From Oxalobacter paraformigenes (lineage in GTDB: Bacteria > Pseudomonadota > Gammaproteobacteria > Burkholderiales > Burkholderiaceae_D): a stretch of 64,000 nt of DNA. Below are positions 11,543 to 44,551 of this stretch, piece after piece. The position numbers and the translations under genes were made by a program. The notes under the pieces were generated by a model, which did not search any database, was not told where the DNA came from, and worked only from the letters and a program-made list of their open reading frames with translations. The number at the start of each line of letters is the position of its first letter. Position 1 is the first letter of the stretch. The DNA lies in contig NZ_KI392031.1 of the NCBI RefSeq assembly GCF_000158475.2, positions 731,563 to 795,562 on the forward strand. The letters are read 5' to 3'.

Positions 11543-12090
11543 AATACGGAATAGCAGAAAACCACCAATTTGTCCTGATCGACGACGATCTCACGAGATT
11601 GGAAAACACGCTGGCTTTCATGCCGCCATACAAAGTGGAGCAAATAGCCGAATACGCGGACGATGAAGTCGAACAGGGCCACAACGGAAACTGGTACGAA
11701 AAAGGGCACGCCCCGCAAAAGCCGCTAAACGAAGCGAGAAGCGCAAAGCTGGCCGAACTGAACGCCGCCTTTGCCGAAGCCTCGGCCAATGCCCACTGCC
11801 GCTCTTCTCTCGGCTTTGAAATCAATGCCGACGAAACCGCCAACCGCAACGTCACCAGCCTGATCGTCGCCCTGGAAGCGGCCGGAGAGGAAACCGTGCC
11901 GTTTTGCGCCTTTGACAACCGCTTTCACGACGTGACGCTGGCCCAGTTGAAGACGATGCAACTGGACATCATCGCGAACGCGAGAGCGCTTTATGCGAGA
12001 AAGTGGGCCTTGCGCGAAGCGATAGGGAAAGCGGCGTCCGTTGAAGAACTGGACGCGATAACAATCGTTTTTTCAGGGGAGCATGCATAA
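11539..12090 (+). CDS. Tail fibre assembly protein, copy 1 (DUF4376-like)
   Basis: 183 residues. The N-terminal ~75 residues (MKYGIAENHQFVLID...YEKGHAPQKPL) are nearly identical to the 13586 product. The rest (CRSSLGFEINADE..N...L, FDNRFHDVTL..L, then a helix ending SVEELDAI) follows the DUF4376 pattern found next to fibre genes in many phages. Start overlaps the fibre stop (ATGA) and its stop overlaps the next fibre start (TAATG), so all four genes are translationally coupled. Likely chaperone for the preceding fibre. Confidence 0.75.
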   Translation: MKYGIAENHQFVLIDDDLTRLENTLAFMPPYKVEQIAEYADDEVEQGHNGNWYEKGHAPQKPLNEARSAKLAELNAAFAEASANAHCRSSLGFEINADETANRNVTSLIVALEAAGEETVPFCAFDNRFHDVTLAQLKTMQLDIIANARALYARKWALREAIGKAASVEELDAITIVFSGEHA

Positions 12091-13589
12091 TGGCCCAACC
12101 TCCTTCTTATGAGCGGCAAAAGAATTTTGCCGACGACTTCGGCAACGAGACCGACCATTCGGCCATAAACGCCGAGCTGGACCGGGCGTCGAATTCGATC
12201 AACGACATCCGGGCGAATCTGGCGATTTTGCAGGCGGACGACGGGAAGTTGCGTCCGTTTGTGGTGACGGCGGATTCGATCAGCGAGGAATTGAGAATTT
12301 CGCTGGTGGAAGGCGTCGTGATGGATGCGCAGGCGATGCTGGACGAATCGAAAGCGGCTTCGGAAGCCTCGGAAGCGTCGGCGGAAAAAGCCGGGGAAAG
12401 CGAGGCGGCTTCGGCGGCCAGTGCGGTTTCGGCAGCGGCTTCGGCAGAGAAAGCGGCGGGATTGGCCGCTCATGTACAAGGCAAGGCGGACGAGATTGTC
12501 CGGACAGCCAGCGCACAGGCGCAAACGTGTGCCGCAGAGGCGGCGCAATCGGCGCAAAGCGCAGCGGACAGTGCAACGCAGGCGCAATCGGTTTGCGAGC
12601 TGATGGATGAACGTGCCGGGGAAATCGTTCAGACGGCAGCAAGCGAAGCCAGGTCGCATGCGCAATCGGCAGAAGAATCGGCCGTCGCAGCGCAAGTCCA
12701 TGCGGAAATTGCGAACCAGCGCGGGATCCCGGTCGGAACGGTGGTGATGTTTTCGGCGTCCACCCCGCCGGCGGGCTATCTGAAATGTGATGGCGCGGCC
12801 GTCGGGCGGGACACGTATCCCGACCTTTTTGCGGCGATTGGGACGACTTATGGAGAAGGCGACGGAGAGGCCACCTTCAATGTGCCGAATCGGGAGGGAT
12901 ACAAAAGAATTGACTACAGTCCCGAGACTACCACCCTAATCGCTCCTGGCGATGGCTACATCTTCGCGCAGGCGAGCACGTCACTTGGCGGATTTTATCT
13001 CAGAAACACGACAAAGGACATGCTAAGCGAAACCCTTGCGGAACGCGAATGGGGACTGGGGACATTTGTCCCCTGCTGGAAGGGAGACACCATAACCGTT
13101 CGAGTGTGGCAGGCCACCATCAACTTGTTATACTTTGCCTCCTCAAACCTCCAGCCGTTTGACGGGGCAGACAAGGGGTGCCTCTGCATTAAATCTTTCG
13201 ATGCAGCGACCAAACCCGGGCTGATCGACGTAACGGAACTGGCCAATGAAGTGGCCGGGAAAGCCGACAAGACACAGGTCGCCAATCTGGCCATGCCCTC
13301 GGGATCACTTGTGCCACTGACCCCATCAAAAGGCGGAACCTACACCGCCCCTGCCGATGGTTACTTCTGTTTTGTGCATGGGCCGGCCAACAACACGGGA
13401 CAACTGTACATACAGCTACACAATCAGACAACGGGATTCCGGTATCAGACATCGGCTGCTTCGCAAAGCGGGGACTGGAATGTGGGCTATCTGCCTATTA
13501 TCCGGGGGCAAACCCTGAGGCTGAGTTACGGAATAGAACTGAGTGGCGACAGCTTGTGGTTTTTCTATGCGCAAGGGAGCCAGCCATGA
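12090..13589 (+). CDS. Tail fibre with collar domain, copy 2
   Basis: 499 residues, ATG overlapping the previous stop. Same layout as copy 1: attachment end, Ala-rich coiled coil, and a collar domain starting at about residue 213 (PVGTVVMFSASTPPAGYLKCDGA). The sequence departs after THYGEGDGE-like collar residues: from about residue 265 onward it shares only LIDVTELANEV with copy 1. DNA identity is very high at 12150-12600 versus 10100-10560. Two fibres with one base and different tips would widen host range or form mixed fibres. Confidence 0.85.
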   Translation: MAQPPSYERQKNFADDFGNETDHSAINAELDRASNSINDIRANLAILQADDGKLRPFVVTADSISEELRISLVEGVVMDAQAMLDESKAASEASEASAEKAGESEAASAASAVSAAASAEKAAGLAAHVQGKADEIVRTASAQAQTCAAEAAQSAQSAADSATQAQSVCELMDERAGEIVQTAASEARSHAQSAEESAVAAQVHAEIANQRGIPVGTVVMFSASTPPAGYLKCDGAAVGRDTYPDLFAAIGTTYGEGDGEATFNVPNREGYKRIDYSPETTTLIAPGDGYIFAQASTSLGGFYLRNTTKDMLSETLAEREWGLGTFVPCWKGDTITVRVWQATINLLYFASSNLQPFDGADKGCLCIKSFDAATKPGLIDVTELANEVAGKADKTQVANLAMPSGSLVPLTPSKGGTYTAPADGYFCFVHGPANNTGQLYIQLHNQTTGFRYQTSAASQSGDWNVGYLPIIRGQTLRLSYGIELSGDSLWFFYAQGSQP

Positions 13590-14188
13590 AATACGGAATA
13601 GCAGAAAACCACCAATTCGTGCTGATCGACGACGATCTCAAGAGATTGGAAAACACGCTGGCTTTCATGCCGCAATACAAAGCGGGGCAGATAGCCGGAT
13701 ACGCGGACGATGAAGTCGAACAGGGCCATGACGGAAACTGGTACGAAAAAGGGCACGCCCCGCAAAAGCCGCTGGATGAGGCGAGAGCCGAAAAGCTGGC
13801 TGAACTGAACGCCGCCTTTGCAACCGCATCAGGGCAAGCCCACTGCCGCTCTTCCTTGGGTTTTGAAATCGACGCCGATGAGGTGGCGAACCGCAACATC
13901 GAAGGGCTGACCCTTGTCTTGCAACCGGGAGAAAGCACCTTGTTTCGTGCCTACGACAACCGTTTTTACGAAGTGACGAGAGAGGAGCTGGAGACGATGC
14001 GTAAAGAAATCGTGGTCAACAGCCAGAAACTCTATCAGGCAAAGTGGACACTTGAGGCGGCTATTACGGTAGCGGAATCCATTGAGGCGCTGGACGCTAT
14101 TGCCCTCTCGCCTGACGCGCTGGCTGAACTGGCGGACGTGTCAGGAGAGAACATCGGGGCAGGAGGAGATCATGGGCAGACGGTGTAG
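13586..14188 (+). CDS. Tail fibre assembly protein, copy 2 (DUF4376-like)
   Basis: 200 residues from ATG 13586, overlapping the fibre stop in ATGA. N-terminal third nearly identical to the 11539 product; the C-terminal half (RNIEGLTLVLQPGE..., YDNRFYEVTREELETM) diverges together with its fibre, as expected for a matched chaperone. It carries ~25 extra C-terminal residues, and the gene end overlaps the next start at 14172. Confidence 0.75.
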   Translation: MKYGIAENHQFVLIDDDLKRLENTLAFMPQYKAGQIAGYADDEVEQGHDGNWYEKGHAPQKPLDEARAEKLAELNAAFATASGQAHCRSSLGFEIDADEVANRNIEGLTLVLQPGESTLFRAYDNRFYEVTREELETMRKEIVVNSQKLYQAKWTLEAAITVAESIEALDAIALSPDALAELADVSGENIGAGGDHGQTV

Positions 14189-14417: not shown

Positions 14418-14650
14418 TGAATGATTTGATGGCGATACTGATCCAGATGGCGGTGGGTCTTTTGGCCTTGCAGGTGGCGGCGCTGGTCTGGTTCGGAACC
14501 CGGGCGCTTGTCGCGCTCGGGAAGCTCCTTGAGACCGTCGCGGTATCGCGACAGGATGCGCAGGAAACGTTTTCGGTCATGGAGGCGCGTATTGCCCGGC
14601 TGGAAACGCGCTGCATGATGGTGAATCTGGGTGCGGGAGAAAAGGCATGA
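14414..14650 (+). CDS. Single-pass membrane protein, possible holin or spanin
   Basis: 78 residues. A hydrophobic segment at ~8-33 (MAILIQMAVGLLALQVAALVWF) is followed by a helical charged tail (RQDAQETFSVMEARIARLETR) that may form a coiled coil. Size and topology suit a small phage membrane protein such as a holin or inner-membrane spanin, but there is no endolysin next to it, so the role is open. It overlaps both neighbours by 4 bases. Confidence 0.55.
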   Translation: MMNDLMAILIQMAVGLLALQVAALVWFGTRALVALGKLLETVAVSRQDAQETFSVMEARIARLETRCMMVNLGAGEKA

Positions 14651-29934: not shown

Positions 29935-31083
29935 ATGGAAAACGAAGAAATGCATGAACAGAACTGGCAGGATAATGAGCGGGCGGAACCGGCGGATGGC
30001 AGCCTGCCCGGCAACGCGATGGAAACGGAGGGCGACGGCGACGCTTCCGGAAAAGAAGGCGATTATGCCGCCGGGGAGGGCGGAAGGGAATGGAGGGCCG
30101 GGCCTGACGCCAGGGCGACCGATTCCCCGAATGTGAAGAAATTGCTGGATGAATTGACTGACGATGGTTCGGAAAGCGGGAGTGGCGCGGAAGCGGACAC
30201 GGCCGCAAACCCGGCCGCTGACGGCGCGGGCCTGAACGCCTTGCCGGAAAAAGAGCCGTCTGCCGGCGGCAAAAACAGGGCGCGTTCTGCCGAGGAAGAA
30301 GAACTGGAATTGCTCGGGACGGTCAAGTCCGAACGGGGCCGCGAACGCATCAAGTCGATCATTTCGGCGCGCCGGGAAGCGGAGTCGCGTCTGGAGGCGT
30401 CGGAATCGGCCGTGAAAGTGTTTAAAGATATTATCCACTCAACCGGCATGGAGATGGAAGATGTCGCCGCGACGCTCAACTACGGCAGACTGGTTACGCA
30501 GGGCGATCCGGCAAGCCTTCAGGAAGCGCTGGGCATTCTCGAGCGCCAGCGGGAAGAACTGTGCCGCCGTCTGGGCATTGAAGCGCCGGGTGTCGATCTT
30601 TTTGCCGATGTGCCCGAAATCAAGACAGCGCTGGAGCGCAAGGAACTGAAAAAGGAACATGCCTTGCGTCTGGCGGAAACGGAAAGGGCCGAACGCGCCG
30701 TCCGCGAACGGAACCGGGAAGAATATGAAAAGGCGTACATGGCGGTGGATGCCGTTTCCAATGTGGCTGAATTCATGAAAACGATGGGAATGTGTTTGCA
30801 GCCCTATACCGGCGAAGCGGATCATCAGGCCAAGATGCTGAAGATGTTCGACTACATGTCGTCTCCGGGCTGGGCGGACAGTTTTATCGCCAACGTGCCC
30901 CAGTCAATGTGGGCCAGCCATATCAAATACCTTTACGAGAATCTGGCGGTTCCCGCGCCCAGACCGGCCGTGACGGCGCAACCCTTGCGGAGCAGTCCGG
31001 TCGCGTCAGGACCGGTAGCGGACCGCCCGGGCATGTCGCACACTGAACGGATATTGAGGCGTATCGACGAAATGGGGCTGTAA
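29935..31083 (+). CDS. Probable phage scaffold protein
   Basis: 382 residues, GGGGAG upstream of ATG. Residues 1-120 are acidic and disordered (NWQDNERAEPADGS...), 120-300 long charged helices (RARSAEEEELELLGTVKSER; ALERKELKKEHALRLAE), and a C-terminal basic helix (SHTERILRRIDEMGL) suits capsid binding. Position directly after the portal is where scaffolds normally lie. The capsid itself is 20 kb upstream. Assignment is by composition and position. Confidence 0.6.
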   Translation: MENEEMHEQNWQDNERAEPADGSLPGNAMETEGDGDASGKEGDYAAGEGGREWRAGPDARATDSPNVKKLLDELTDDGSESGSGAEADTAANPAADGAGLNALPEKEPSAGGKNRARSAEEEELELLGTVKSERGRERIKSIISARREAESRLEASESAVKVFKDIIHSTGMEMEDVAATLNYGRLVTQGDPASLQEALGILERQREELCRRLGIEAPGVDLFADVPEIKTALERKELKKEHALRLAETERAERAVRERNREEYEKAYMAVDAVSNVAEFMKTMGMCLQPYTGEADHQAKMLKMFDYMSSPGWADSFIANVPQSMWASHIKYLYENLAVPAPRPAVTAQPLRSSPVASGPVADRPGMSHTERILRRIDEMGL

Positions 31084-31834: not shown

Positions 31835-32416
31835 ATGAAGAAAACGTGCAGCCGTGCCATAGCGACGTCGCGAGCCGACAGCGGCCGGACGATGTCGCGG
31901 CGCTTTGCGACACGGAACAGCCCGTTTGACGCAGCGGGAAAAGCCGGGGAGCGGCCGGTTGATCCGGAATGGCCTGAAGATCTGTTTTTGATGAACCGGT
32001 TTTACGGGAAGGCTGTTCTGGAACCGTTGATTAGGGTGCTTCGGGAGGATGTGGCGGGTGAAAAAAGCGGCTTGCTGGCAGAAACGCTTGAAAAGGAAAT
32101 GCAGGCAAAAAAAGGCTGCATCCGGGGCGACGCGCTGTGGGAAATCCTGAAAAACGGGCTGGGCATGGCGTGTGCGGTCCATCTGATTGCCGGACTGGAC
32201 GGTTTCGGCGGGCTGGGGCTGTATGACGACCGGATTATGGCGCGTTTTGCGCAAGGCCGGAAAAGACCGGCCCAAACGGCCACATCGTGTTGCGGCAAGT
32301 CCGGGGGAATGGAAAGTCCCGGCAGGGAAAAAATCAGGGAGGCCACCCGGGGTTGCCGGGATCGGGCGTCGGGAAAGGAGGAAAACCGTTGGCGAGGGAA
32401 GAGGGAAAAAAACTGA
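31835..32416 (+). CDS. Hypothetical phage protein before small terminase
   Basis: 193 residues from ATG 31835, with GAAGGAG 8 bases upstream. Basic Ser/Arg-rich start and end, and a helical core (EDLFLMNRFYGKAVLEPLIRVLRED; ALWEILKNGLGMACAVHLIAG). First gene after P1 copy A and overlapping the small terminase start, so part of the packaging unit. Family not recognised; the basic ends would allow nucleic-acid binding. Confidence 0.5.
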   Translation: MKKTCSRAIATSRADSGRTMSRRFATRNSPFDAAGKAGERPVDPEWPEDLFLMNRFYGKAVLEPLIRVLREDVAGEKSGLLAETLEKEMQAKKGCIRGDALWEILKNGLGMACAVHLIAGLDGFGGLGLYDDRIMARFAQGRKRPAQTATSCCGKSGGMESPGREKIREATRGCRDRASGKEENRWRGKREKN

Positions 32417-33033
32417 AGCCGGGCGTGGGGGAAGCGCAGCCGGAAGCGCCGGGGATAAGGGGGATGGAACCGGATGGCGGCGAACTGACGGCGCGGCAAC
32501 GCCGTTTCATTGATGAATATCTTATTGATCTGAATGCGACGCAGGCGGCGATTAGGGCAGGATACGCGCCTTTAGGCGCACGCCAGCATGCTTGCCGGTT
32601 GCTGGCGAAAGAGGAAGTGAAAAGGGCGGTTTCCGACGCGATGGAAAGGCGGCAGGCCAGAACGGAGCTGACGGCTGACGAGGTGATCGCGGATTTGCGC
32701 GAACTGCGGGATATCTGCATGGGACGCAAGCCGGTGAAGATCATGACGATTGTGAAAAACGCGCGGGAAGGCACGGCCGAGCCGGTGGAAGTGGAGGGCA
32801 TGATGTTCGAGCCCGCTTCGGCCAACCGGGCGCTGGAAATGCTGGGCAAGCACATGCGATTGTTTGCCGACAGGATGGACATGACATCCAACGGCCAGAC
32901 ACTGCAATCAGGCGTTTTGCTGGTGCCGTCTGTCATGTCGGAGGAAGAGTGGATCGGAAACGATCCGGCGTCCGTTCGGAAAACGGCCGGAAAACAGGAC
33001 GGGAAGGGCGCGGGGACGGGCAGTCCGTATTGA
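32389..33033 (+). CDS. terS: Small terminase subunit
   Basis: 214 residues from a TTG at 32389, chosen because AAAGGAGG lies 7 bases upstream; ATG 32464 is a weaker alternative that would still keep the domain. LTARQRRFIDEYLIDLNATQ... followed by AIRAGYAPLGARQHACRLL is the Terminase_2 helix-turn-helix that recognises packaging-start DNA. The middle has oligomerisation helices (ADEVIADLRELRDI). The C-terminal basic tail may contact TerL. It overlaps the end of 31835 by 28 bases. Confidence 0.8.
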   Translation: MAREEGKKLKPGVGEAQPEAPGIRGMEPDGGELTARQRRFIDEYLIDLNATQAAIRAGYAPLGARQHACRLLAKEEVKRAVSDAMERRQARTELTADEVIADLRELRDICMGRKPVKIMTIVKNAREGTAEPVEVEGMMFEPASANRALEMLGKHMRLFADRMDMTSNGQTLQSGVLLVPSVMSEEEWIGNDPASVRKTAGKQDGKGAGTGSPY

Positions 33034-33183
33034 CGGCGGGCGCTCGTTCCGGAAAGGTTTTCCGGCCGCGATTGGAAAAGCTTTCCGCAGGGTGCGGAAA
33101 CGGCCGATGCACGCCGGATGAACCGGCACGGCATCGGGGAAATTCTCCGTTGGGAGATCACAGGAAATGAAAGGATGTTGACG

Positions 33184-33729
33184 ATGAATTTAAACGATAT
33201 TTACGGTTCAAACGACGCTTATCGGGGCGGGGATGTTTATCAGCCGCTGATTGCCCGCTTGCAGGAGATCGCGGCCAGACGGGCGAACGATTACCGGGCA
33301 GCCGCCGATTCTTCCCCACTGCGCCGGATGGAACTGGCCGGAAGTCAGGGCGGCCAGTTGCCGGGCCCGGAGGCGGCGCAGGCCATGCACGAATGGGCTG
33401 CCCGCCAGAACATGGGGGACGGCGCCCGCGACTGGATGCATGAAGGCGGCATGATGGAACAGGAAATGCAAATGCCGCCGCCGGAACAGTACGGCCCGGA
33501 CAGGACGCATTACATTCCGGCCGGTTCCACGCCGCTGTCACGCCTGTCGGAACGGATCGAGCGGATGGGGCTGGTCGGCGGCGGATCGCCGGAAAGCCGG
33601 CAGGCCATGCTGTATGCGCAGGGCGGCGTGCCGGGCGGCCGTCGCCGCCGCGTGTCGTATGACGATCCCGCTTCCTATCTGTTCAGGACAGCGGTCGATT
33701 ACAGCGACGGGGAAGACGGACAAGGGTAA
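33184..33729 (+). CDS. Hypothetical phage protein between terminase genes
   Basis: 181 residues from ATG 33184 (MNLNDIYGSND), with AAAGG nine bases upstream. Gln/Met/Gly-rich and mostly disordered (GGMMEQEMQMPPPEQYG). Contains LSERIERMGLVGG, which resembles the scaffold C-terminus (ILRRIDEMGL), so both may bind the same capsid site. Basic RRRRVSYDD near the end. Function unknown. Confidence 0.5.
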   Translation: MNLNDIYGSNDAYRGGDVYQPLIARLQEIAARRANDYRAAADSSPLRRMELAGSQGGQLPGPEAAQAMHEWAARQNMGDGARDWMHEGGMMEQEMQMPPPEQYGPDRTHYIPAGSTPLSRLSERIERMGLVGGGSPESRQAMLYAQGGVPGGRRRRVSYDDPASYLFRTAVDYSDGEDGQG

Positions 33730-33762
33730 GGATGGACAGAACTGGCCCTTTTTTTACGGACT

Positions 33763-33809
33763 GAACGGAGCGGGAAAACGGTGGAAACCCCCGTTTTCCC
33801 GCTCCGTTC
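33763..33809 (+). repeat. Perfect 19-bp inverted repeat before terL
   Basis: GAACGGAGCGGGAAAACGG at 33763-33781 pairs without mismatch with CCGTTTTCCCGCTCCGTTC at 33791-33809, with a 9-base loop. No T-tract follows. It sits 30 bases upstream of terL. Possible roles: packaging-start (pac/cos) recognition, RNase III processing, or a translation brake on terL. Confidence 0.6.
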
Positions 33810-33839
33810 GTACCTGGCCGGTTTTTCACGAAGGAGACA

Positions 33840-35312
33840 ATGATGGAAACCGACTCATCCGGTGCGGAAAAGATCACTCCGGTTGAAAGCGGAACCGGAA
33901 AGAAAGCGGAAGAATCCGGGAAAACGGGCCCTCGGGTGATCTGGCAACCGTTGCCGGGCAGCCAGACGCGTTTTCTGACCTGTCCGGTCTTCGAGGCGCT
34001 TTTGGAAGGCACGCGGGGCGGGGGCAAAACGGATGCGCTTTTAATGTCGTTCGCCCGGTATTGCGGACGCGGGTTTGGCGAGCACTGGCGCGGCGCGCTT
34101 TTCCGGCTGACCTACCCTCAACTGGCCGATGTCGTCGCCAAATCGAAACGGTGGTTCTATTCGATCTTTCCGGGCGCGAAATTCAACGAATCGGAATACC
34201 GCTGGACATGGCCGACCGGGGAAATCCTGTATTTCCGCTATGGCGCAACCGAAGACGACTACTGGAATTACCACGGCCATGAATATCCCTGGCTTGGATT
34301 CGAGGAGCTGACGAACTGGCGCAACCTGTCTTTTTTCGAGGCGATGATGTCCACCTGCCGGTCGTCGTATCCGGGCATGCCGCGCATGATCCGGGCCACC
34401 TGCAACCCCTTCGGCGTCGGCCATGCCGCCGTCAAGGCGCGCTACAGGATCGGCGAAGTCTCGGCCGGCGTCATTATCCATGAACCCGGACAGCAGCCCC
34501 GCGTGCGCATCCATTCGTCCATTTACGAAAACGACCATCTCCTGAAAAACGATCCCGACTATCTGCCGACACTCGAGGCGATTTCTGACCCCAACCGGAA
34601 AAAGGCCTGGTTAAACGGCGACTGGGATATCCATGTCGGTTCGTTTCTGGAAGGGGTGTGGGACGCGGCAAAACACGTGACCGAACCGTTCGCCATTCCG
34701 CCATCCTGGACAGTCTGGAAGGCGATGGACTGGGGATATGCCGCGCCCTATGCCGTTTACTGGTTCGCCATGAACCCGGACGGCTGCATTTATTTGTGGC
34801 GCGAACTGTATGGCGCCGGCGAAAAAGCCGGGCAGGGCAGCCGGGAAGACGCTGCCGACGTCGCCCGGAAAATCAAAAAAATGGAAGAGCGGGATGAACG
34901 TTTCGGCTACGACTACCGGATCAATCTGGCCGACCCGTCGATCTTTTCCAAAAACGGCACCGACCGTTCCATCGGACAGATATTCCGGGATGAAGGGATA
35001 CGTTGGCAGGAGGCGTGGAACGCCAAAGGTTCCCGCGTCAACGGCGCGCAGGAAATCATTCGCTTGCTGGCGGAAGGCAAACTGAAAATCTTTTCGACGT
35101 GCAAACACTGGCTGCGTACCGTGCCATCCCTGCCGCCGGACGAACTGAACCCGGAAGACGTGGACACGACCGCCGAAGACCATGCCTGGGACGCCACACG
35201 CTATGGCGTCATGAGACGCCGCCGTTCCCCCGAAACGCCGCGGCCGGCCAATGACGGGCTGGACGACGAAGCCGACATCGGCGACGACGGCAGGCATTTC
35301 ATACGGATATGA
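33840..35312 (+). CDS. terL: Large terminase subunit
   Basis: 490 residues, AAGGAG before ATG 33840. N-terminal ATPase: Walker A GTRGGGKT at 57-64, Walker B-like YPWLGFEEL at 149-157 with the catalytic Glu, and CNPFGVG as motif III. C-terminal RNase H-like nuclease: DWG at 297-299, ADPS around 365 and the AEDHAWDATRYG end with acidic residues near 455-460. It powers DNA translocation through the portal and cuts concatemers. Length is normal for the family, with no frame damage. The carrier gene follows 59 bases later. Confidence 0.9.
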   Translation: MMETDSSGAEKITPVESGTGKKAEESGKTGPRVIWQPLPGSQTRFLTCPVFEALLEGTRGGGKTDALLMSFARYCGRGFGEHWRGALFRLTYPQLADVVAKSKRWFYSIFPGAKFNESEYRWTWPTGEILYFRYGATEDDYWNYHGHEYPWLGFEELTNWRNLSFFEAMMSTCRSSYPGMPRMIRATCNPFGVGHAAVKARYRIGEVSAGVIIHEPGQQPRVRIHSSIYENDHLLKNDPDYLPTLEAISDPNRKKAWLNGDWDIHVGSFLEGVWDAAKHVTEPFAIPPSWTVWKAMDWGYAAPYAVYWFAMNPDGCIYLWRELYGAGEKAGQGSREDAADVARKIKKMEERDERFGYDYRINLADPSIFSKNGTDRSIGQIFRDEGIRWQEAWNAKGSRVNGAQEIIRLLAEGKLKIFSTCKHWLRTVPSLPPDELNPEDVDTTAEDHAWDATRYGVMRRRRSPETPRPANDGLDDEADIGDDGRHFIRI

Positions 35313-35371
35313 AGACAAAAGGGTCAACGGGAAATACCGTTTACCCGAAACAACACAGAAAGGAACCCCTC

Positions 35372-37033
35372 ATGGAAACAGCCACCCCCCGGAACGCTGA
35401 CAGCAGCCAGAACCCCTTCGGGCAGACATTTGGAGGAAGCGACATCCCTCCGCCGAAACGGTCGCTCCCGCCGGACGCGCTCAGGCTCTATCACGGCCTT
35501 CAGCGCTTTATGAACCCTCCTTCCGCTTCCGGCCCGACGCTTGCCTCTTTCAAGACCGCCACCGGCTCTTTCGGCTCGGGCAAGCGGAACCTTTCGCCCG
35601 AGCCGGCCCGGCAGGCTTCGCCCGGCCTCTCTTCCAAGATCGGCCCTCATACCTTTTCCGATAAAACCACGCCTGCTGTTTCAAACAGCGCGACGTCTTC
35701 CGCCATAAGGCGAGCGGAAACGTCTTCTCCCCCGGCATCCTCTTTCGGAAGGGATAACGCGGCTTTCAAACCGGTTTCTGCCGCTTCGGACACTTCCTCC
35801 GTTACCGATCCCCGCACCGCCGACGCCATCCTGTACGGGAGCGATACGTCTTCGGGAAATTCCTCCCGCTTCCGGTCTCAAGACAACGCGTCCGACTATG
35901 CCCTGGCAGCCGGAAACGAAGGCTTTCATATGCCCGCTGAAATCCATCCCGGCCTCATCGCGTCCGGCTCGCCCCAACAGCAAGAGCGCACCCGGCAGGA
36001 AAGCGTCCGCCTTCAGCACAGTCTGGGAAACGAAGGCTTCACCCTGTCGCCCGACACCCCTGAACAGGCGGCCCGGTTCAAAGAAGCGCTGGAAGCCGGG
36101 GGAAAACAGGCGGGAGCGATGCTGTCGGGACAGGAAAGGGAAACCCGCCTTGCCTACGGCATGCCGGCAGAAGGCGAAAGCACCCAAAGCGCATGGGGAA
36201 CCTATATGAATGCCAAACGAAAGAGCGACACAGCCACCCATGACGACGAGGCAAGATACCTGAACCGGCTGGCCGGGAGCGGCTATGGCACAGGCATCAC
36301 CGATCTGTCCCATTCCCTGATCGCGGGCGGATACGATGCGGGCAGCAAGGCGCTGACCTATGGCTATCTGGTCACCAAACCCCTGACCTTTATGTGGGAT
36401 AACGACGTCTATACCGATCCACAAAGCGGCATCACCTACAAAGACGACCTGAGCGCCTACCTTGGCTATCCGGCCAGACGTTTGCTCCACGAGAAGAAAG
36501 AAGCGGAAAAAGCGGCGAGAAGCGAGGCCTACCAAAACGCGAGCCTCACCCAACCCGGCTATCTTCCCGTCAAGGCCGTGGGCACCGTCATGGAAGACCT
36601 CATCACCACCCTGGTGATGCTTTACCTGACCCGTCAGGCCGGGCTGGGAAGCGCGACCGCCGTCAGCATGGCGATCAGCGCCGTCAGCGACTACAGCGGC
36701 GGGTACGACAGGACGGTAGCCGAATGGATGGACAAGCCGCAGGGGGAGATCGGACAAAACCGGGTGTACCGTGAGCTGAGAAGGCAGGGCATTACCGACA
36801 CCCGTGCCCGGTTCATCATCGGGCATACGTTAGGGGAGAAGCAGGCGAAAAGGAGTGCCCTGGCCGGGGCGTTGCGGGCTTATGCCGCTTCGAGGGTGGC
36901 CGGGATGACTCGCACCGGGAAGGAAGGCGAAATGTTGAAGTTTGTTCAGGATGAAAGCGCTAACTGGGGTATTAATCAGGGAATGGACATGTTCAAGAAG
37001 AACGTTCTTGATAAGGATAATAAGAAACAATAG
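35372..37033 (+). CDS. Family B carrier protein with variable C-terminal tip
   Basis: 553 residues from ATG 35372, chosen for AAAGGA upstream; the frame is open from 35309. Residues 1-240 are Ser/Thr/Pro-rich and disordered. An ordered part starts around 280 (NRLAGSGYGTGITDLSHSL...). Then a region copied downstream in the array begins at EAEKAARSEAYQ. It has an apolar helix TTLVMLYLTRQAGLG, RELRRQGITDTRARFIIGH and RAYAASRVAGMTRTG. The last ~35 residues (starting EMLKFVQDESAN) are the variable tip, hydrophilic and AT-rich. No N-terminal signal. It lies right after terL and before a Sel1 lipoprotein. Inference: phage-linked effector or ejection protein with exchangeable tip; no enzymatic motif seen. 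Confidence 0.6.
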   Translation: METATPRNADSSQNPFGQTFGGSDIPPPKRSLPPDALRLYHGLQRFMNPPSASGPTLASFKTATGSFGSGKRNLSPEPARQASPGLSSKIGPHTFSDKTTPAVSNSATSSAIRRAETSSPPASSFGRDNAAFKPVSAASDTSSVTDPRTADAILYGSDTSSGNSSRFRSQDNASDYALAAGNEGFHMPAEIHPGLIASGSPQQQERTRQESVRLQHSLGNEGFTLSPDTPEQAARFKEALEAGGKQAGAMLSGQERETRLAYGMPAEGESTQSAWGTYMNAKRKSDTATHDDEARYLNRLAGSGYGTGITDLSHSLIAGGYDAGSKALTYGYLVTKPLTFMWDNDVYTDPQSGITYKDDLSAYLGYPARRLLHEKKEAEKAARSEAYQNASLTQPGYLPVKAVGTVMEDLITTLVMLYLTRQAGLGSATAVSMAISAVSDYSGGYDRTVAEWMDKPQGEIGQNRVYRELRRQGITDTRARFIIGHTLGEKQAKRSALAGALRAYAASRVAGMTRTGKEGEMLKFVQDESANWGINQGMDMFKKNVLDKDNKKQ

Positions 37034-37075
37034 AATGCAACAATAAAAGAAATACCCACTTCTTTCGAAACCAGT

Positions 37076-37984
37076 ATGGCTAAAAAAATATTCTTTCTCA
37101 TTTTAACCGGTAGTCTGTTATTCTTTTTAACAGCCTGTGAAAAAGAACAAGCAAAAGAGATTGTCAGTGAAAAAGAAGGGATGGAATATTATCGAAAAGG
37201 GGAATATAAAAAAGCGTCTCCTTTACTACGAAGGTCGGCTGATTCAGGAAATGCAGCCGCCTATTATTATCTTGGTTTAATCCACTTGAAAAGCAAGGGC
37301 AAGGAAGAATCTGGTAAAAATGCTTGTAACTGTTTTGTCAAATCAGCTGAAAGCGGATATCCCAAAGCTTACCTGAAAAGTGCCGGTTGCTATCTTACCG
37401 GAACAGGAGTTGAACAGGATTTCAAGAGTGCGTTCGAATGGGGGAAAAAAGCAGCCGATACAGCCGATGAAATCCGGATGGACGACAAGGACAGACTCTT
37501 TCTGGCTTTACTGATGGGAGGCATGTATGCCAATGGAAAAGGTACCTTGCAGGATTTTTCCGAAGCGGCGAAGTGGTATAAAAAAGCGGCCGAAATGGGA
37601 GATGCAACAGGGCAAAGCATGATGGCGTTCTTTACCTATTCAGGCAGAGGCGTACTGATGAACAGGGAAAAATCCCGATACTGGGCGGAAAGGGCAGCGG
37701 CACAAGGTTCGCCGTATGGTGAGGTTATTTTGGGAATGCTCAGCCAATACCGGGAAAACCCCGATATGAAAGAAGCCATGCACTGGTACAGAAAAGCGGC
37801 CGGACAAGACAATAAAGTGGCTTATTACCAACTGGGCGTGATCTATGAAAAAGGGCTGGCAGTCAAACAGGACCTTGCCAAAGCCCATCATTACTATCAG
37901 CTGGCCGCGCAAAGCGGAAGAGACTATATTGTTCAGGAGCTTATCGACTTCGAGGCACGGCACAAGCTGAACAAAAAAGATTAA
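37076..37984 (+). CDS. Sel1-repeat lipoprotein 1 (candidate immunity, family B)
   Basis: 302 residues. Type II signal with lipobox FLTAC (Cys21), followed by E, so outer membrane is likely under the Lol rule. Then ~7 Sel1 repeats (GNAAAYYYLGLIHLKSKGKEE..., DFSEAAKWYKKAAEMGD, DLAKAHHYYQLAAQSG). Lies 42 bases after the first carrier tip. Somewhat AT-rich like that tip. Periplasm-facing solenoids of this kind can bind and block an effector; cognate pairing is inferred from order. Confidence 0.8.
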   Translation: MAKKIFFLILTGSLLFFLTACEKEQAKEIVSEKEGMEYYRKGEYKKASPLLRRSADSGNAAAYYYLGLIHLKSKGKEESGKNACNCFVKSAESGYPKAYLKSAGCYLTGTGVEQDFKSAFEWGKKAADTADEIRMDDKDRLFLALLMGGMYANGKGTLQDFSEAAKWYKKAAEMGDATGQSMMAFFTYSGRGVLMNREKSRYWAERAAAQGSPYGEVILGMLSQYRENPDMKEAMHWYRKAAGQDNKVAYYQLGVIYEKGLAVKQDLAKAHHYYQLAAQSGRDYIVQELIDFEARHKLNKKD

Positions 37985-38023
37985 TCCCGGTTTTCCCATT
38001 TCAAAGCCCGTCTGACCGAACGG

Positions 38024-38176
38024 GCTTATGCCGCTTCGAGGGTGGCCGGGATGACTCGCACCGGGGAGGAAGGGGCATTTACCAAGGAAGTTCAGAATTA
38101 TTTTTCAGATAAAATTGTTGGGAAAATACTGGAAAGAGGAATGCATTCTTTAAATGAAGAAGAAAATAAGCCATAA
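38024..38176 (+). pseudogene. Orphan tip cassette 2 (family B carrier end)
   Basis: Frame AYAASRVAGMTRTGEEG matches the last conserved 17 residues of the family B carrier, then continues into a new ~33-residue tip starting AFTKEVQNYFSDKIV and ending NKP-stop. There is no start codon or ribosome site, so it is not a gene on its own. The junction falls in the descending arm of the preceding Sel1 terminator-like repeat (ACGGGCTT). Next comes Sel1 gene 2, 26 bases later. Confidence 0.7.
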
Positions 38177-38202
38177 TAATCAAAATTAACTTTTCAAAAA
38201 AA

Positions 38203-39168
38203 ATGAGAATCGATCCTTCTTTTATAAAAAAATGTGGTTTTTTTATTTTGGCCTTTATTTTTATTTCTGGATGCCAACCAAATACAAGTGATGGAATACA
38301 TTTTTATAAAGACAAGCAATACGAACGAGCCTTTTCTTTATTAAAAAAAGAAGCGGAAGATGGAAATGGACAATCCCAGTATTGCCTTGCAAAAATGTAT
38401 GAAGAAGGATTGGGTGTAAAACCCGATGACAGAAAAGCGTTGCATTGGTATAAAAAAGCTTCTGAAAATAATGATGCGTTGGCTCAGTACGAGCTTGGGC
38501 AAGCATACTATCATGGAAAAATGGGATTAAAAGCTGATCCGAAAGAAGCGTTTAGATGGTATCTCAAAGCCGCTGAAAATGGCAACACTGAGGCACAAAA
38601 AAAAACAGGTATTTACTATTTTGTTGGGAAAGAAGTTGGTCGTGACAATGTAAAAGCTTTAAAATGGTTGAAAAAATCTGTTCAAAATAAGAATAAACAG
38701 GACAAGGAGATATTTTATTATATTGGATCGATATATTATACAGACGGAAAAGGTTTAAAAGATACGGCTGAAGCAGCAAAGTGGTATAAAAAAGCTGCAG
38801 AATTAGGTGATCCGGATGCACAGGCCGTATTGGGCTTGCAATATTATTCTGGGCAAGGAGTTACAAAAGACTTGAATAAAGCAAGATATTGGGCCGAAAA
38901 AAGTGCTGAAAAGGAAAACGATCAGGGAGAATTATTGCTTGGCATGATCTATGATTTTTCCGGAAACACCGATCGGAACGTAGAAAAAGCCCTAAGATAT
39001 TATGAAAAATCTGCAAAAAAAAATAATGGGGCAGCATATTATTTTCTTGCTGAACATTATAGAAATGGGGATGGAGTAGAGAGAAACAGATCACTTGCGT
39101 TAAAATATTACAAGCGTGCACTTGATGAAGGTTTTTATTCAGCAAAAGAAAAAATAGAAGAACTTTAA
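38203..39168 (+). CDS. Sel1-repeat lipoprotein 2 (candidate immunity, family B)
   Basis: 321 residues. Lipobox FISGC (Cys24) followed by Q. About eight Sel1 repeats (DGNGQSQYCLAKMYEEGLGVKP and so on). Strikingly AT-rich across its whole length, unlike the conserved carrier segment but like the tip just upstream, pointing to recent joint acquisition. No ribosome site better than weak AAAAAA. Followed after 8 bases by Sel1 gene 3 with no tip between. Confidence 0.8.
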   Translation: MRIDPSFIKKCGFFILAFIFISGCQPNTSDGIHFYKDKQYERAFSLLKKEAEDGNGQSQYCLAKMYEEGLGVKPDDRKALHWYKKASENNDALAQYELGQAYYHGKMGLKADPKEAFRWYLKAAENGNTEAQKKTGIYYFVGKEVGRDNVKALKWLKKSVQNKNKQDKEIFYYIGSIYYTDGKGLKDTAEAAKWYKKAAELGDPDAQAVLGLQYYSGQGVTKDLNKARYWAEKSAEKENDQGELLLGMIYDFSGNTDRNVEKALRYYEKSAKKNNGAAYYFLAEHYRNGDGVERNRSLALKYYKRALDEGFYSAKEKIEEL

Positions 39169-39176
39169 AATGAAGG

Positions 39177-40196
39177 TTGAAAATTTTTAATTTTTCAAAA
39201 ATAAAGAAGAGATCTTGTTTCCTGTTATCCTTTTTATGCATGCTTTTTGTTCTTTCAGCGTGTCATAAAGAGGAAAAGGTAGCAACGGATAAAAAAGAAA
39301 GCGTTCAGCTTTATTTGGACGGTCAGGTTAAAAAAGCTTTTCCATTGTTAAAAAACGAAGCCGAAAAAGGAGATGCTCAAGCGCAGTATTATCTGGCAGA
39401 AATATACGAGGAAGGAAAATCGGTAAAACAGGACAATGAAAAGGCTTTGTATTGGTATCGTCAATCGGCTGAAAAGAACCATGCCTTGGCGGAATACAAA
39501 CTGGCTGAAGCATTCCGTCATGGAAAACTGGGTCTAAAATCCGATCGCAAAGAAGCGTTCAAATGGTATCTGAAAGCGGCAGAAAACGGTAATGCAGCCG
39601 CACAAAAAACCGTGGCCGGATATTATCTGGAAGGAGAGCCCATCCCGAAAAACCATGCCGAAGCGCTGAAATGGTTTAAAAAGGCACAAGAAACCCGAAA
39701 AGACGACAAAGAACTGTATACCAAAATAGGGATAATGTATTACAGTGGATTAGGAACCTTGAGAGACACCAGCGAAGCGGCAAAATGGTTTGAAAAAGCG
39801 GCCATACTTGGCGATTCGCATGCTCAATCGGTATTGGCAGTACAGTACTACTCAGGTCAAGGCGTCCTGATGCACAAGGAAAAAGCGAAATACTGGGCCG
39901 AAAAAGCGGCGGCTCAAGGTAACGATGTGGGAGAATTCATTCTTGGAATGCTCTGTCATTATCGGGATATACCAGATATGAAACAGGCTGTTGCATGGTA
40001 TAAAAAAGCAGCAGAAAAGAATAATGAGGCTGCTTTACACGCATTAGCTGTGCTTTATGAACAAGGCAATGGTGTCAGACAAGATTCAACCAAAGCCCAT
40101 CATTACTACCGTCTGGCTGCGCAAAGCGGAAAAGATTATACGATCAAGGCATTGGCTGACTTTGAAGCGAAAAACAAGCTGGAAAACAGGCCATAA
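39177..40196 (+). CDS. Sel1-repeat lipoprotein 3
   Basis: 339 residues from TTG 39177; later ATGs would cut the signal peptide. Basic start, hydrophobic core and lipobox VLSAC (Cys29). About eight Sel1 repeats. It is the only member of the array not preceded by a carrier tip, so it either shares the tip of gene 2 or lost its own by deletion. The 5' third is AT-rich and the 3' part less so. A strong terminator follows. Confidence 0.75.
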   Translation: MKIFNFSKIKKRSCFLLSFLCMLFVLSACHKEEKVATDKKESVQLYLDGQVKKAFPLLKNEAEKGDAQAQYYLAEIYEEGKSVKQDNEKALYWYRQSAEKNHALAEYKLAEAFRHGKLGLKSDRKEAFKWYLKAAENGNAAAQKTVAGYYLEGEPIPKNHAEALKWFKKAQETRKDDKELYTKIGIMYYSGLGTLRDTSEAAKWFEKAAILGDSHAQSVLAVQYYSGQGVLMHKEKAKYWAEKAAAQGNDVGEFILGMLCHYRDIPDMKQAVAWYKKAAEKNNEAALHALAVLYEQGNGVRQDSTKAHHYYRLAAQSGKDYTIKALADFEAKNKLENRP

Positions 40197-40217
40197 TTTT
40201 CATTTCCAATCCGTTTA

Positions 40218-40248
40218 AAACCCGTCTGAATGATCAGACGGGTTTTTT
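40218..40248 (+). terminator. Intrinsic terminator after Sel1 gene 3
   Basis: AAACCCGTCTGA / TCAGACGGGTTT, a perfect 12-base stem with a 4-base loop and T-tract. Related GTCTGA-type terminators follow Sel1 genes 5 and 6, showing that the terminator is part of the repeated cassette. Confidence 0.85.
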
Positions 40249-40252
40249 ATTG

Positions 40253-40781
40253 ACCGAAGCAAGCTGAAAAAGCGGCGAGAAGCGAGGCCTACCAAAGCGC
40301 GAGCCTCACCCAACCCGGCTATCTTCCCGTCAAGGCCGTGGGCACCGTCATGGAAGACCTCATCACCACCCTGGTGATGCTTTACCTGACCCGTCAGGCC
40401 GGGCTGGGAAGCGCGACCGCCGTCAGCATGGCGATCAGCGCCGTCAGCGACTACAGCAGCGGGTACGACAGGACGGTAGCCGAATGGATGGACAAGCCGC
40501 AGGGGGAGATCGGACAAAACCGGGTGTACCGTGAGCTGAGAAGGCAGGGCATTACCGACACCCGTGCCCGGTTCATCATCGGGCATACGTTAGGGGAGAA
40601 GCAGGCGAAAAGGAGTGCCCTGGCCGGGGCGTTACGGGCTTATGCCGCTTCGAGGGTGGCCGGGATGACGAGAACGGGAGAAGAGGGAGCGGGAACTTTG
40701 ATCTGGCAGGATACCCTTATAAACATGGGATTCGATGGAGTATCAAATTATTTGAAAAAAGAAGAAAAAAGTAAAAAATAA
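40253..40781 (+). pseudogene. Orphan family B carrier module with tip 3
   Basis: Open frame from 40253 reproduces the last ~140 residues of the 35372 carrier almost base for base, from AEKAARSEAYQ to RVAGMTRTGEEG, then a new tip (AGTLIWQDTLINMGFDG... ending KKEEKSKK). The first candidate starts (GTG 40338, ATG 40350) lie well inside the conserved segment and lack ribosome sites, so it is probably silent. It would serve as donor for homologous replacement of the carrier end. Sel1 gene 4 follows 40 bases later. Confidence 0.7.
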
Positions 40782-40821
40782 TATATTGTATAATATCAAA
40801 ATCAATTTTTAGTTTTTGAAT

Positions 40822-41706
40822 ATGAAAAACAAAATATTTTATTTTTTGATTCTATTTTTTCTCTCTTTTTTAGTTTCTTGTGAAAAAAAATCAAGTATTT
40901 CCAGTGAAAAAGAAGGGATGGATTATTATAAAAAGGGAGAATATGAAAAAGCGTTACCTTTATTAGAAAAATCGGCTAATTCAGGAAATGCTAAAGCATA
41001 TTTTTATCTGGGTGAGATATACAGAGATAAAGACATCTCTACGTCCTGCAGAAATTACAAGAAAGCTTCCGAAGGAGGATACAAAGAAGCTTTTTTCAAA
41101 GTAGGGTTATGTTATTATGTCGGCGAAGGAATTGAAAAAAACGATTCAGAAGCTTTTAAATGGGCAAAGAAAGCAGGAGACGAACTTAACGAAATTCAAC
41201 TTAGCAATGATGATAAAAAACATTTAATGCTATTCATAGGAGATTTTTATCTAACCGGAAAAGGAACCTTGCAGGATTTTTCCGAAGCGGCGAAATGGTT
41301 TGAACAGGCGGCGGAACTGGGTGATGAAAGAGCGCAAGCGACAATGGCTTTCTTTTATTACTCAGGTCAGGGCGTCCTGATGAGCAAGGAAAAATCCAAA
41401 TACTGGGCCGAAAAAGCGGCGGCTCAGGATAATGAAATAGGTGAGTTTGCGTTAGGAATGCTTAACCAGTTTAACGATCCTCCGGCTATCAAGGAAGCCG
41501 TTTACTGGTATGAAAAAGCGGCTGAAAAAAATCATGAAGGGGCGCAATACGAATTGGGCGTGATCTATGAAAAAGGCGTCGGTATTGAACAGGATTTGGC
41601 CAAAGCCCATCATTACTACAAATTAGCGGCAACAAGCGGACGCAGCTATCTTGTTGAAGAACTGTCAAATTTTGAAAAAAGGCACAACTTGAAAGGAACA
41701 CCTTAG
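40822..41706 (+). CDS. Sel1-repeat lipoprotein 4 (candidate immunity, family B)
   Basis: 294 residues from ATG 40822. Lipobox FLVSC (Cys20) followed by E. About seven Sel1 repeats. The first ~440 bases are AT-rich. From about 41262 (AAGGAACCTTGCAGGATTTT) the DNA becomes GC-richer and matches Sel1 gene 1, so the gene is a mosaic made by recombination between paralogues. Follows tip 3. Confidence 0.8.
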   Translation: MKNKIFYFLILFFLSFLVSCEKKSSISSEKEGMDYYKKGEYEKALPLLEKSANSGNAKAYFYLGEIYRDKDISTSCRNYKKASEGGYKEAFFKVGLCYYVGEGIEKNDSEAFKWAKKAGDELNEIQLSNDDKKHLMLFIGDFYLTGKGTLQDFSEAAKWFEQAAELGDERAQATMAFFYYSGQGVLMSKEKSKYWAEKAAAQDNEIGEFALGMLNQFNDPPAIKEAVYWYEKAAEKNHEGAQYELGVIYEKGVGIEQDLAKAHHYYKLAATSGRSYLVEELSNFEKRHNLKGTP

Positions 41707-41723
41707 CCTTGTGCCAAAACCAG

Positions 41724-41952
41724 GGGAAGCGAGGCGTACCAGACACGGCTTCCCCAACCCGGGTTACCTGCCCGTCAAGACGTGGCCGAATGGATGGACA
41801 AGCCGCAGGGGGAGATCGGACAAAACCGGGTGTAGTGGGGGGAAGGCGAAATGTTAAAAAATATGCAAGACTATGTTTTCGACAAAGTCACCGATGCCTG
41901 GATGAACGGCACCGAAAACCCTCAATCCGATTCAGCTCATAACCGGCCATAA
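41724..41952 (+). pseudogene. Eroded carrier module with intact tip 4
   Basis: Pieces of the family B carrier survive: EAYQ...QPG-like codons, then a jump to VAEWMDKPQGEIGQNRV and a stop (GTGTAG at 41831-41835). The tip frame 41842-41952 remains open: EGEMLKNMQDYVFDKVTDAW... ending AHNRP. It shares EGEMLK..QD with tip 1. Two internal deletions explain the loss. Sel1 gene 5 follows 42 bases later. Confidence 0.65.
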
Positions 41953-41994
41953 CGGCATGATAGAATAAAAGCCTCCTGATTTCTGTACGGTCAC

Positions 41995-42903
41995 ATGTTG
42001 AAAAAGATATTTTCCCTGCTGGTAACAAGTGTCCTGTTTTTTTCTTTAACCGCCTGCGAAAAAGAAAAGGCAAACGGGATAATCAGCGAAAAGGAAGGCG
42101 TCGAATATTATCGAAAGGGAGAATATGAAAAAGCGCTTCCTTTATTGCAGAAAGCGGCCGATTTCCGCAATGCGGCCGCTTTCTATTATCTCGGGTTGAT
42201 GCAAAGGGAAGGAAAAGGCGTTGAAAAAAATTACGGAAAATCTTGCGAAGATTTTCTGAAAGCGGCAGAAGGTGGATATCAGGAAGCTTATCTGTTGAGT
42301 GGCATTTGCTATCGGGTGGGAGATGGCTTCGAAAGAAATGATAAAGAAGCGTTCAAATGGGCCAAAAAAGCAGCGGATACGGTTAATGAAAGTCAAATGG
42401 ATAGCGAAGATATAGTGGTGTTATCCGTATTTCTGGGCGACCGTTACTTTGCAGGAGAAGGAACCTTCCAGGACTTTTCGGAAGCAGCGAAATGGTACGA
42501 AAAGGCAGCCATGCTGGGAGATCCCAGAGCACAGGGAGTTCTGGCTTTTCTTTATTACTCAGGAAAAGGCGTTCTGACCAGCAAGGAGAAAGCGAAATAC
42601 TGGGCTGAAAAGGCTGTAAAGCAGGGTGATGATATGGGGGAATTTACTTTGGGAATGTTTAATTTCCTAAAAGAACCAGCCGATACTGAAAAAGCAATTT
42701 ATTGGTATGAGAGCGCATCGAACAAGGGAAATTACTGGGCGCAACAGTCTCTGGGCGTTATCTATGAAGAAGGAACCGGGGTAGAAAAAGATATAACCAA
42801 AGCCCACCACTACTACCGTCTGGCTGCCAAAAGCGGCAAGGAAGCCATGCTAAAAGCGCTTGCCGACTTCGAGGCGCGGCACAAGCTGAAAAACACTCCC
42901 TGA
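41995..42903 (+). CDS. Sel1-repeat lipoprotein 5 (candidate immunity, family B)
   Basis: 302 residues. Lipobox SLTAC (Cys21) followed by E. About seven Sel1 repeats, same length as genes 1 and 6 and close to both (EKEGVEYYRKGEYEKALPLL; DFSEAAKWYEKAAMLGD; ITKAHHYYRLAAKSG). Base composition intermediate. Follows tip 4 and ends before a GTCTGA-type terminator. Confidence 0.8.
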   Translation: MLKKIFSLLVTSVLFFSLTACEKEKANGIISEKEGVEYYRKGEYEKALPLLQKAADFRNAAAFYYLGLMQREGKGVEKNYGKSCEDFLKAAEGGYQEAYLLSGICYRVGDGFERNDKEAFKWAKKAADTVNESQMDSEDIVVLSVFLGDRYFAGEGTFQDFSEAAKWYEKAAMLGDPRAQGVLAFLYYSGKGVLTSKEKAKYWAEKAVKQGDDMGEFTLGMFNFLKEPADTEKAIYWYESASNKGNYWAQQSLGVIYEEGTGVEKDITKAHHYYRLAAKSGKEAMLKALADFEARHKLKNTP

Positions 42904-42926
42904 TTTTCTTTTCCGATCCGTTTAAA

Positions 42927-42957
42927 AACCCGTCTGATTATTCGGATGGGTTTTTTA
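42927..42957 (+). terminator. Intrinsic terminator after Sel1 gene 5
   Basis: ACCCGTCTGA pairs with TTCGGATGGGT (one mismatch or wobble), followed by six T and ATTGACCGAA, the same context as after the terminator at 40218. Confidence 0.7.
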
Positions 42958-42970
42958 TTGACCGAAACGG

Positions 42971-43105
42971 GCTGAAAAAATGGCGGGAAGCGAGGCCTGC
43001 CAAAATGCGGGCTTCCCCAATCCCGGCTCTTTTCCCTCAAGGTGTCGTTGTCGTGGAAGGCTTCATTACCGTATTGGCGGCGCTTGGCCTGATCCCTCAG
43101 GCTAA
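42971..43105 (+). pseudogene. Degenerate carrier fragment, no tip
   Basis: AEKMAGSEACQNAGFPNPG aligns with AEKAARSEAYQNASLTQPG of the family B carrier; after one frameshift QGVVVVEGFITVLAALGL aligns with KAVGTVMEDLITTLVMLYL. The rest, including any tip, is lost. From 43106 to 43591 I see nothing supportable. Confidence 0.5.
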
Positions 43106-43591
43106 AGACGGCAACGAAAGCCCCGCCACGGCGGAAATACGCCTTCCTTGGATAACGGCCTGGCCTTTCCCCGGCGATTCCGGTCAGGGCGGCAGGCGAC
43201 TGGGGCGGTTACGCGGGTGAATGGGGACAACCTGACAAGCCTTATCGCCCTATCGGAAGAGGGAGCGGTGAAAAAACCGGTCTGTGCCCGGTTGAGACAG
43301 ACAGGAGAAACGATCCGGGTGCCCGCCCTGATGTGGCGGACGCCAACGCGGCAGGAGAAGGCACGGAAAGGCCTGTTTCCGCTCTCGCCGGTCAGGTCGG
43401 TGGGCCGTTCGGGAAGCGGCCGGGCCGGGAAGGCCGGCTTTGTGTTTGAGGGGAGGATAAAACCGGGTATCCCGCTTTGAGGGACAGGCAGGGAGAAAGA
43501 CTGACAAAAGTAAAACATCCCCTAAAAACGGGAAGGCAAAGCATGCCGGAATGCTAAAATACAGGCTGCCCCTAAAACGTCCTGAACAGAA

Positions 43592-44500
43592 ATGCCCAGA
43601 AAAACATTCCTCCTGATAAGCCTTATCGCGCTGTTCTTTTCTTTAACGGCCTGTCAAAGTGAAAAGGCGAAAGATATCCCTGCCGAAAAAAAGGGAGTGG
43701 AGTATTACCAGCAGAAAAAATACCGGAAAGCCTTGCCTTTGTTGAAGAAATCGGCGGATTCGGGCAATGCGGCGGCGCTGTATTATCTGGGGCTGATGCA
43801 CCGGCAGGGAAACGGGGTGGAAAAAAGTGCCGGAAAAGCCTGCCAGTATTTTCTGAAAGCGGCTGAAGGCGGATACAAGGAGGCGTATCTGGCAGCCGGC
43901 CTGTGTTACCGGAAGGGAAACGGTTTCAGCCGGGACGACAGGGAAGCGTTCAGATGGGCAAAAAAGGCGGCGGATGAAACCGGCGAAAGCGGGATGAAGG
44001 ATGAAAACCGGCGCGAATTGGCGGTATTGCTGGGCGACAGTTACTTTGCGGGAGACGGCACTGTTCAGGATTTTCCGAAAGCGGCCAGGTGGTACGAAAA
44101 GGCAGCGGAACTGGGAGACACCCGCGCTCAGGGCGCGCTGGCTTTTCTTTACTGTTCGGGCAAAGGCGTTCTGATAGACCGGGAGAAGGCGAAATACTGG
44201 GCGGACAAGGCAGTCTCGCGCAAGGACGATATGGGGGAGTACACGCTGGGAAGGTTGAGCCTTTTGGACGAACCGCCCGACATGAAAAAGGCGGTTTACT
44301 GGTACCGGAAAGCGTCGGATCAGCGCAATCCCTGGGCGCAACAGGCGCTGGGCGAGATGTATGAGGAAGGAAAGGGCGTCAAACGCGATCTGGCCAAAGC
44401 CCGTTATTACTATGGACTGGCGGCAAAGAGCGGAATGGAAGAGATGAAAAAGGCGCTTGCCGGATTTGAGGAACGCCACACGCCCAAAAAACCCGCCTGA
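43592..44500 (+). CDS. Sel1-repeat lipoprotein 6 (candidate immunity, family B)
   Basis: 302 residues. Lipobox SLTAC (Cys21) followed by Q. About seven Sel1 repeats. GC-rich like the surrounding chromosome, in contrast to genes 2 and 4, so it is probably the oldest member of the array. No tip survives upstream. If immunity proteins, this one would be a retained orphan. A strong terminator follows. Confidence 0.8.
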   Translation: MPRKTFLLISLIALFFSLTACQSEKAKDIPAEKKGVEYYQQKKYRKALPLLKKSADSGNAAALYYLGLMHRQGNGVEKSAGKACQYFLKAAEGGYKEAYLAAGLCYRKGNGFSRDDREAFRWAKKAADETGESGMKDENRRELAVLLGDSYFAGDGTVQDFPKAARWYEKAAELGDTRAQGALAFLYCSGKGVLIDREKAKYWADKAVSRKDDMGEYTLGRLSLLDEPPDMKKAVYWYRKASDQRNPWAQQALGEMYEEGKGVKRDLAKARYYYGLAAKSGMEEMKKALAGFEERHTPKKPA

Positions 44501-44519
44501 GTTTTTTCCGGAACGGGAA

Positions 44520-44551
44520 AAGCCTGTCTGAACCGGTCAGACAGGCTTTTT
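44520..44551 (+). terminator. Intrinsic terminator after Sel1 gene 6
   Basis: AAGCCTGTCTGA / TCAGACAGGCTT, perfect 12-base stem with a 5-base loop and T-tract. Ends the array. Confidence 0.85.

Follow-up and report, generated by a model that had tools for sequence, protein, structure and literature searches.

A perfect 19-bp hairpin ahead of terL in a podovirus-like gene cluster of Oxalobacter, a candidate intercistronic RNA element

Introduction

Long stems between phage genes are familiar from RNase III sites of the kind found in the early region of T7, which serve intercistronic processing and are often imperfect duplexes, the duplex length favoured by RNase III being about two helical turns. 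The Oxalobacter hairpin described here resembles them as a long stem between same-strand genes that is probably read through, and differs in being a perfect duplex whose cleavage is our proposal. It also shares with intrinsic (Rho-independent) terminators a G+C-rich stem after the end of a gene and, in its relatives, weak T-tails, whereas the stem in the DNA analysed has 19 bp and no adjoining T-run.

The terminase region of phages harbours other elements of interest. The pac site of P22 (PMC9611059) is a 22-bp asymmetric sequence located within terS; the Oxalobacter hairpin lies in the terminase region too, but is a palindrome outside terS and is not conserved in relatives. The cabRNA of staphylococcal phages (PMC10686824) is likewise a structured RNA of the terS-terL region with predicted hairpins, about 400 nt long, or less than 50 nt in other phages, and is sensed by a CBASS cyclase; unlike the Oxalobacter hairpin, which sits in a gap, it arises inside coding genes. 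A literature search combining terminase, RNase III, stem-loop, phage and transcription terminator returned no report.

Results

The window analysed is a stretch of 64,000 nucleotides (positions 731563-795562 of its contig) from the 2.49-Mb genome of Oxalobacter paraformigenes. It carries a podovirus-like cluster (8479-37033) common to Oxalobacter genomes (L116, L120, L145-L148 and L158-L163), in which the hairpin is surrounded by phage-type genes: the major head protein at 8479, tail-fibre genes from 10040, an SU10-type adaptor at 14647, the portal at 27430, terS at 32287, an ORF that we call Y, and terL at 33840. On the forward strand, the longest form of the terS ORF spans 32287-33033 (Pfam Terminase_2 and PHROG matches), its true start probably lying further inside; Y spans 33118-33729 with a likely start at 33184 and has no family match; and terL spans 33840-35312 (PHROG matches, with a Pfam match under its cut-off), preceded by AAGGAG at 33831-33836, read in the sequence as its likely ribosome-binding site.

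The original prediction had placed a perfect hairpin in a 110-base gap between the small and large terminase genes. The hairpin, at 33763-33809 on the forward strand, is as described: its 19-bp arms (33763-33781 and 33791-33809) are exact reverse complements separated by a 9-nt loop. The gap of 110 bp before terL is there as well; it separates Y from terL, so that Y intervenes between the two terminase genes. The description of the hairpin as free of a T-tract holds for the stem itself, with two T in the next eight bases, and not for its surroundings: a run of five T (33822-33826) starts 12 bases after the stem and overlaps the 3' arm of a weaker outer stem predicted by folding (forward strand, 33738-33747 with 33816-33825), and a run of seven T (forward strand, 33749-33755) stands upstream. 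A weak fold over the stop codon of Y before these seven T was matched by 80 of 200 shuffles (z -0.16) and was discarded.

Folding set the hairpin apart from shuffled sequence both as RNA (47 nt, -39.8 kcal/mol, z -9.15) and as DNA (z -9.56), none of 200 shuffles equalling it in either case, and the RNA fold of the surrounding 113 nt gave -56.3 (z -6.71). As RNA the hairpin is predicted to form 21 pairs, two extra G-C pairs being added above a one-base bulge, a duplex of the roughly two helical turns expected of an RNase III site. In a 464-kb genome sample made up of the window and twenty 20-kb stretches, a count of perfect hairpins with stems of 11 bp or more and loops of 3-15 gave 37, of which this one is the longest and two of 15 bp are the runners-up; 23 of the 37 have at least four T in the next eight bases or at least four A in the preceding eight, against two and two for the 19-bp hairpin. 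Searches of the window with Rfam covariance models at the gathering score and for tRNAs gave no match. A repeat element was also considered and rejected, since the best genome match outside its own place has an E-value of only 0.037.

Within the genus, four genomes were found with the order terS-Y-terL, and the position of the hairpin is kept in all of them, in gaps of 104-145 bp before terL: the stem has 19 bp in the window genome (G000), 11 in O. formigenes HC-1 (G003, NZ_CP018787, locus L116), 10 in G001 and 10 in G012. Of the 13 genus genomes, these four are also the ones with relatives of Y. The hairpins of G001 and G012 have both arms identical to each other and a sequence unrelated to that of the window hairpin, although the aligned part of TerS retains 66-79% identity.

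Between the window and HC-1, the whole Y-terL gap aligns better than 500 shuffles. The two arms of a 9-bp core, AGCGGGAAA at 33769-33777 and its partner at 33795-33803 (forward strand), are identical in the HC-1 alignment at 18 of 18 positions. Of 16 pairs compared, nine are invariant, two are changed on both sides, one becomes G-U, and the four lowest, formed in the window, are unpaired in HC-1. The actual structure pairs at 87.5% in this alignment against 44-59% for slid structures; with two alignable sequences only, the covariation did not beat its shuffle control (130 of 500). Two of the 13 genus genomes contain the core pattern GCGGGAAA-N(0-30)-TTTCCCGC, each at one place and in each case before terL. 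The reversed pattern used as control also has one match, in G000, so that the core motif alone is not rare and the evidence lies in its placement before terL in two species.

To judge what this retention means, the divergence of the cluster itself has to be considered. Comparison of G000 with G003 gave dN/dS of 0.07-0.22 in 10 of 11 cluster genes, the value for gene X being undefined. Seven have dS of 1.05-1.71, near those of three flanking host genes (dS 1.17-1.39, dN/dS 0.12-0.23), and the remaining three are fast-changing, with saturated dS of 2.4-3.5. At cluster-gene dS of 1.05-3.5, gap sequence under no selection is expected to be much altered, and the retained core would point to selection. 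A neutral or DNA-level palindrome with no RNA function, either a chance or mobile-element remnant or the binding site of a regulator, would account for the four lowest pairs absent in HC-1, as if the palindrome had recently grown, and strand-switch repair can perfect palindromes; we consider it unlikely, given that the hairpin belongs to no repeat family and that its core has stayed in place in a second species.

G000 and G003 have the cluster next to the same host genes; the flanks of the G001 cluster, on the downstream side, matched no such genes. Tyrosine-integrase matches in the genome come no nearer than about 125 kb beyond the window. The host-like dS, the low dN/dS and the lack of a nearby tyrosine integrase together suggest that the cluster is old, maintained and vertically inherited. 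A defective phage and a gene-transfer-agent-like system are among the things that it may be, the integrase search having covered the tyrosine type.

Several other features of the cluster and its vicinity were recorded. A tail-fibre gene and its partner stand in tandem copies at 10040-14188 (10040/11539 and 12090/13556), and both pairs match one single HC-1 pair within the stretch compared. A motif like R-x-x-[DE]-x-M-G-[LI], often at the extreme C-terminus and perhaps a capsid-targeting tail, is shared by a scaffold-like protein, Y and a G001 protein encoded after terL (window 29935-31083 and 33118-33729; L120 8547-9437 and 10984-11919). From 35309 to 44500 runs a row of Sel1-repeat genes, several with lipoprotein-like starts, alternating with C-terminal copies of a protein Z, residues 390-556 of which, for example, are repeated at 40236-40736 with 87% identity; HC-1 has a similar row (L116 6361-11227). 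It looks like a series of orphan toxin-tip and immunity cassettes, a function that is our guess. A 13-bp hairpin with CCGTCTGA arms (40217-40246) recurs with its flanks, inverted, at L130 9221-9250 and is thus part of a dispersed repeat. Finally, the word GCCTGTCTGAA (e.g. 44518-44550), which we take to resemble neisserial DNA uptake words, occurs five times in the 464-kb sample, where permuted words average 0.23 occurrences and never exceed 3, a weak excess, and the closer neisserial word GCCGTCTGAA occurs twice, within its control.

The T-tails of the hairpins bear on termination. Directly after the window stem there is no T-run (2 T of 8, tail score 2.04). The tail of HC-1 reaches 5 T of 8 and a score of 4.29 counted from the T's closing the stem, or 4 of 8 and 3.2 after it, and those of G001 and G012 have 5 T of 8 directly after the stem with a weak score of 2.54. 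Elsewhere in the cluster, five hairpins at gene junctions reach 5.08-6.01 when the count starts at the T run that closes the stem, or 3.04-5.64 after the stem, and these strong-tailed hairpins occupy matching places in the window and HC-1. The terL hairpins are thus tail-poor, that of the window most of all, though those of its relatives do include some T.

A leaky (attenuating) intrinsic terminator after Y, stopping transcription in part and lowering the amount of terL message, with the five T past the outer stem as its tail in the window, would fit the weak T-tails at the same place in HC-1 and in G001 and G012 (4.29 and 2.54; 5 T of 8 each) as well as the strong-tailed hairpins at matching places elsewhere in the two clusters. 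It would also fit the wide occurrence of the core stem in viral contigs, where we met it in 76 stretches, many near-identical; 56 of the 76 have at least five T in the nine bases after the stem or five A in the nine before, and none of the stretches fetched has a related terL beside it. The window stem, without a T-tail and much longer than required, speaks against such a terminator, which we regard as a serious possibility that falls short of being probable. That the hairpin far exceeds the length required of a terminator is a fair statement about the window stem; the relatives' hairpins at the same place, with their 10-11 bp and weak T-tails, would fit an origin in termination. A terminator on the minus strand was rejected, the T-run being absent on that side.

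A terminator scan reported no forward-strand site in the Y-terL gaps of the window, HC-1 and G012, its loop limit of 8 itself excluding the hairpins of the window (9) and G012 (11), and one minus-strand site within the gap of G012. The same three gaps yielded no promoter-like site in a scan limited to the sigma-70 consensus, the sole HC-1 match being upstream of the gap (L116 4353-4381). It follows that terL is probably reached by read-through, and that a full terminator in the gap would cut it off.

We then compared the locus with other terL loci, drawn from 100 related genomes, the window genome among them and 7 having a match, from viral contigs (80 of 182 kept) and from named genomes (23 loci). 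Among 109 rows, the six Oxalobacter rows with the gap, which stem from four genomes and include repeats (L009, L010, L011, L012, L096 and L116), were set apart, and six others fell outside the measured set (L050, L059, L060, L106, L117 and L118). The 97 left, repeats included, represent 80 distinct 400-bp junctions; their terL is 65-79% identical in 96 cases and 28% in one. The gap from the upstream ORF to terL is at most 20 bp in 94 of them, and a junction hairpin of at least 8 bp is found in none of the 97, the searched junction being short where the genes abut. The three long-gap loci (L083, L095 and L112) have no hairpin either; by eye, the upstream ORF had been wrongly chosen in L095, where terS is directly upstream of terL, and L083 and L112 seemingly have another small ORF in the gap. 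When the 250 bp before terL were searched with loops of up to 15, two of the 97 loci (L027 and L036) showed a 10-bp hairpin about 219 bp away, and loops of up to 19 added an 11-bp hairpin in L024 and L026.

These comparisons bear on the suggestion of the original prediction that the hairpin lies where phages often keep packaging signals. A DNA site for packaging or TerS binding, of the pac or cos type, would suit a location in the terminase region, where many such signals sit; it is very unlikely here, as all 97 measured relatives lack the hairpin at the junction and two of the four Oxalobacter genomes carry one of unrelated sequence. Hence it is no packaging site that has been kept along with this terminase, and the comparison does not support the suggestion.

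Discussion

The poor tails of the terL hairpins, together with the lack of a visible promoter for terL, lead us to prefer narrowly, over a leaky terminator, an intercistronic mRNA hairpin that transcription passes through and that is afterwards processed by RNase III or protects an RNA end. We hold this reading tentatively, as possible rather than probable; it makes plausible the alternative offered in the original prediction, an RNase III site that sets the terL message apart. A role as RNA is supported by the place of the hairpin in four of four genomes, by the intact HC-1 core (18 of 18) despite dS of about 1 or more, by the 21 RNA pairs, by the mere two T among the eight bases after the window stem and by the presence of an encoded RNase III. 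Against it count the absence in HC-1 of 4 of the 16 pairs, the unbeaten shuffle control (130 of 500) and the relatives' weak T-tails (5 of 8), which suit a weak terminator.

With processing or protection, a single message would run through terS, Y and terL, transcription presumably crossing the gap, and its Y-terL part would fold into a helix of about two turns. The helix would be cut by RNase III, or would block exonucleases. Either way the terS-Y message would be parted from that of terL, whose 5' end would fall just before its ribosome-binding site, and the cell could make TerS and TerL in unequal amounts. Elsewhere among related phages, terL adjoins terS directly, probably with translational coupling; Y and the gap seem to have come between the two in the Oxalobacter cluster.

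A broader reading would make the cluster a domesticated, integrase-less, vertically inherited particle system resembling gene transfer agents, and the hairpin a lineage-specific RNA element replacing terS-terL translational coupling and setting the dosage of TerL; we think this improbable as a whole.

Taken alone, the hairpin is an element of an ordinary kind and of unusual length. Its setting suggests how an additional gene can come to separate terS from terL in a phage packaging operon where the two are normally joined directly, an RNA structure then bridging the break. Should the cluster prove to be a particle system that is maintained and does not move, the hairpin would offer a simple handle on its packaging motor.
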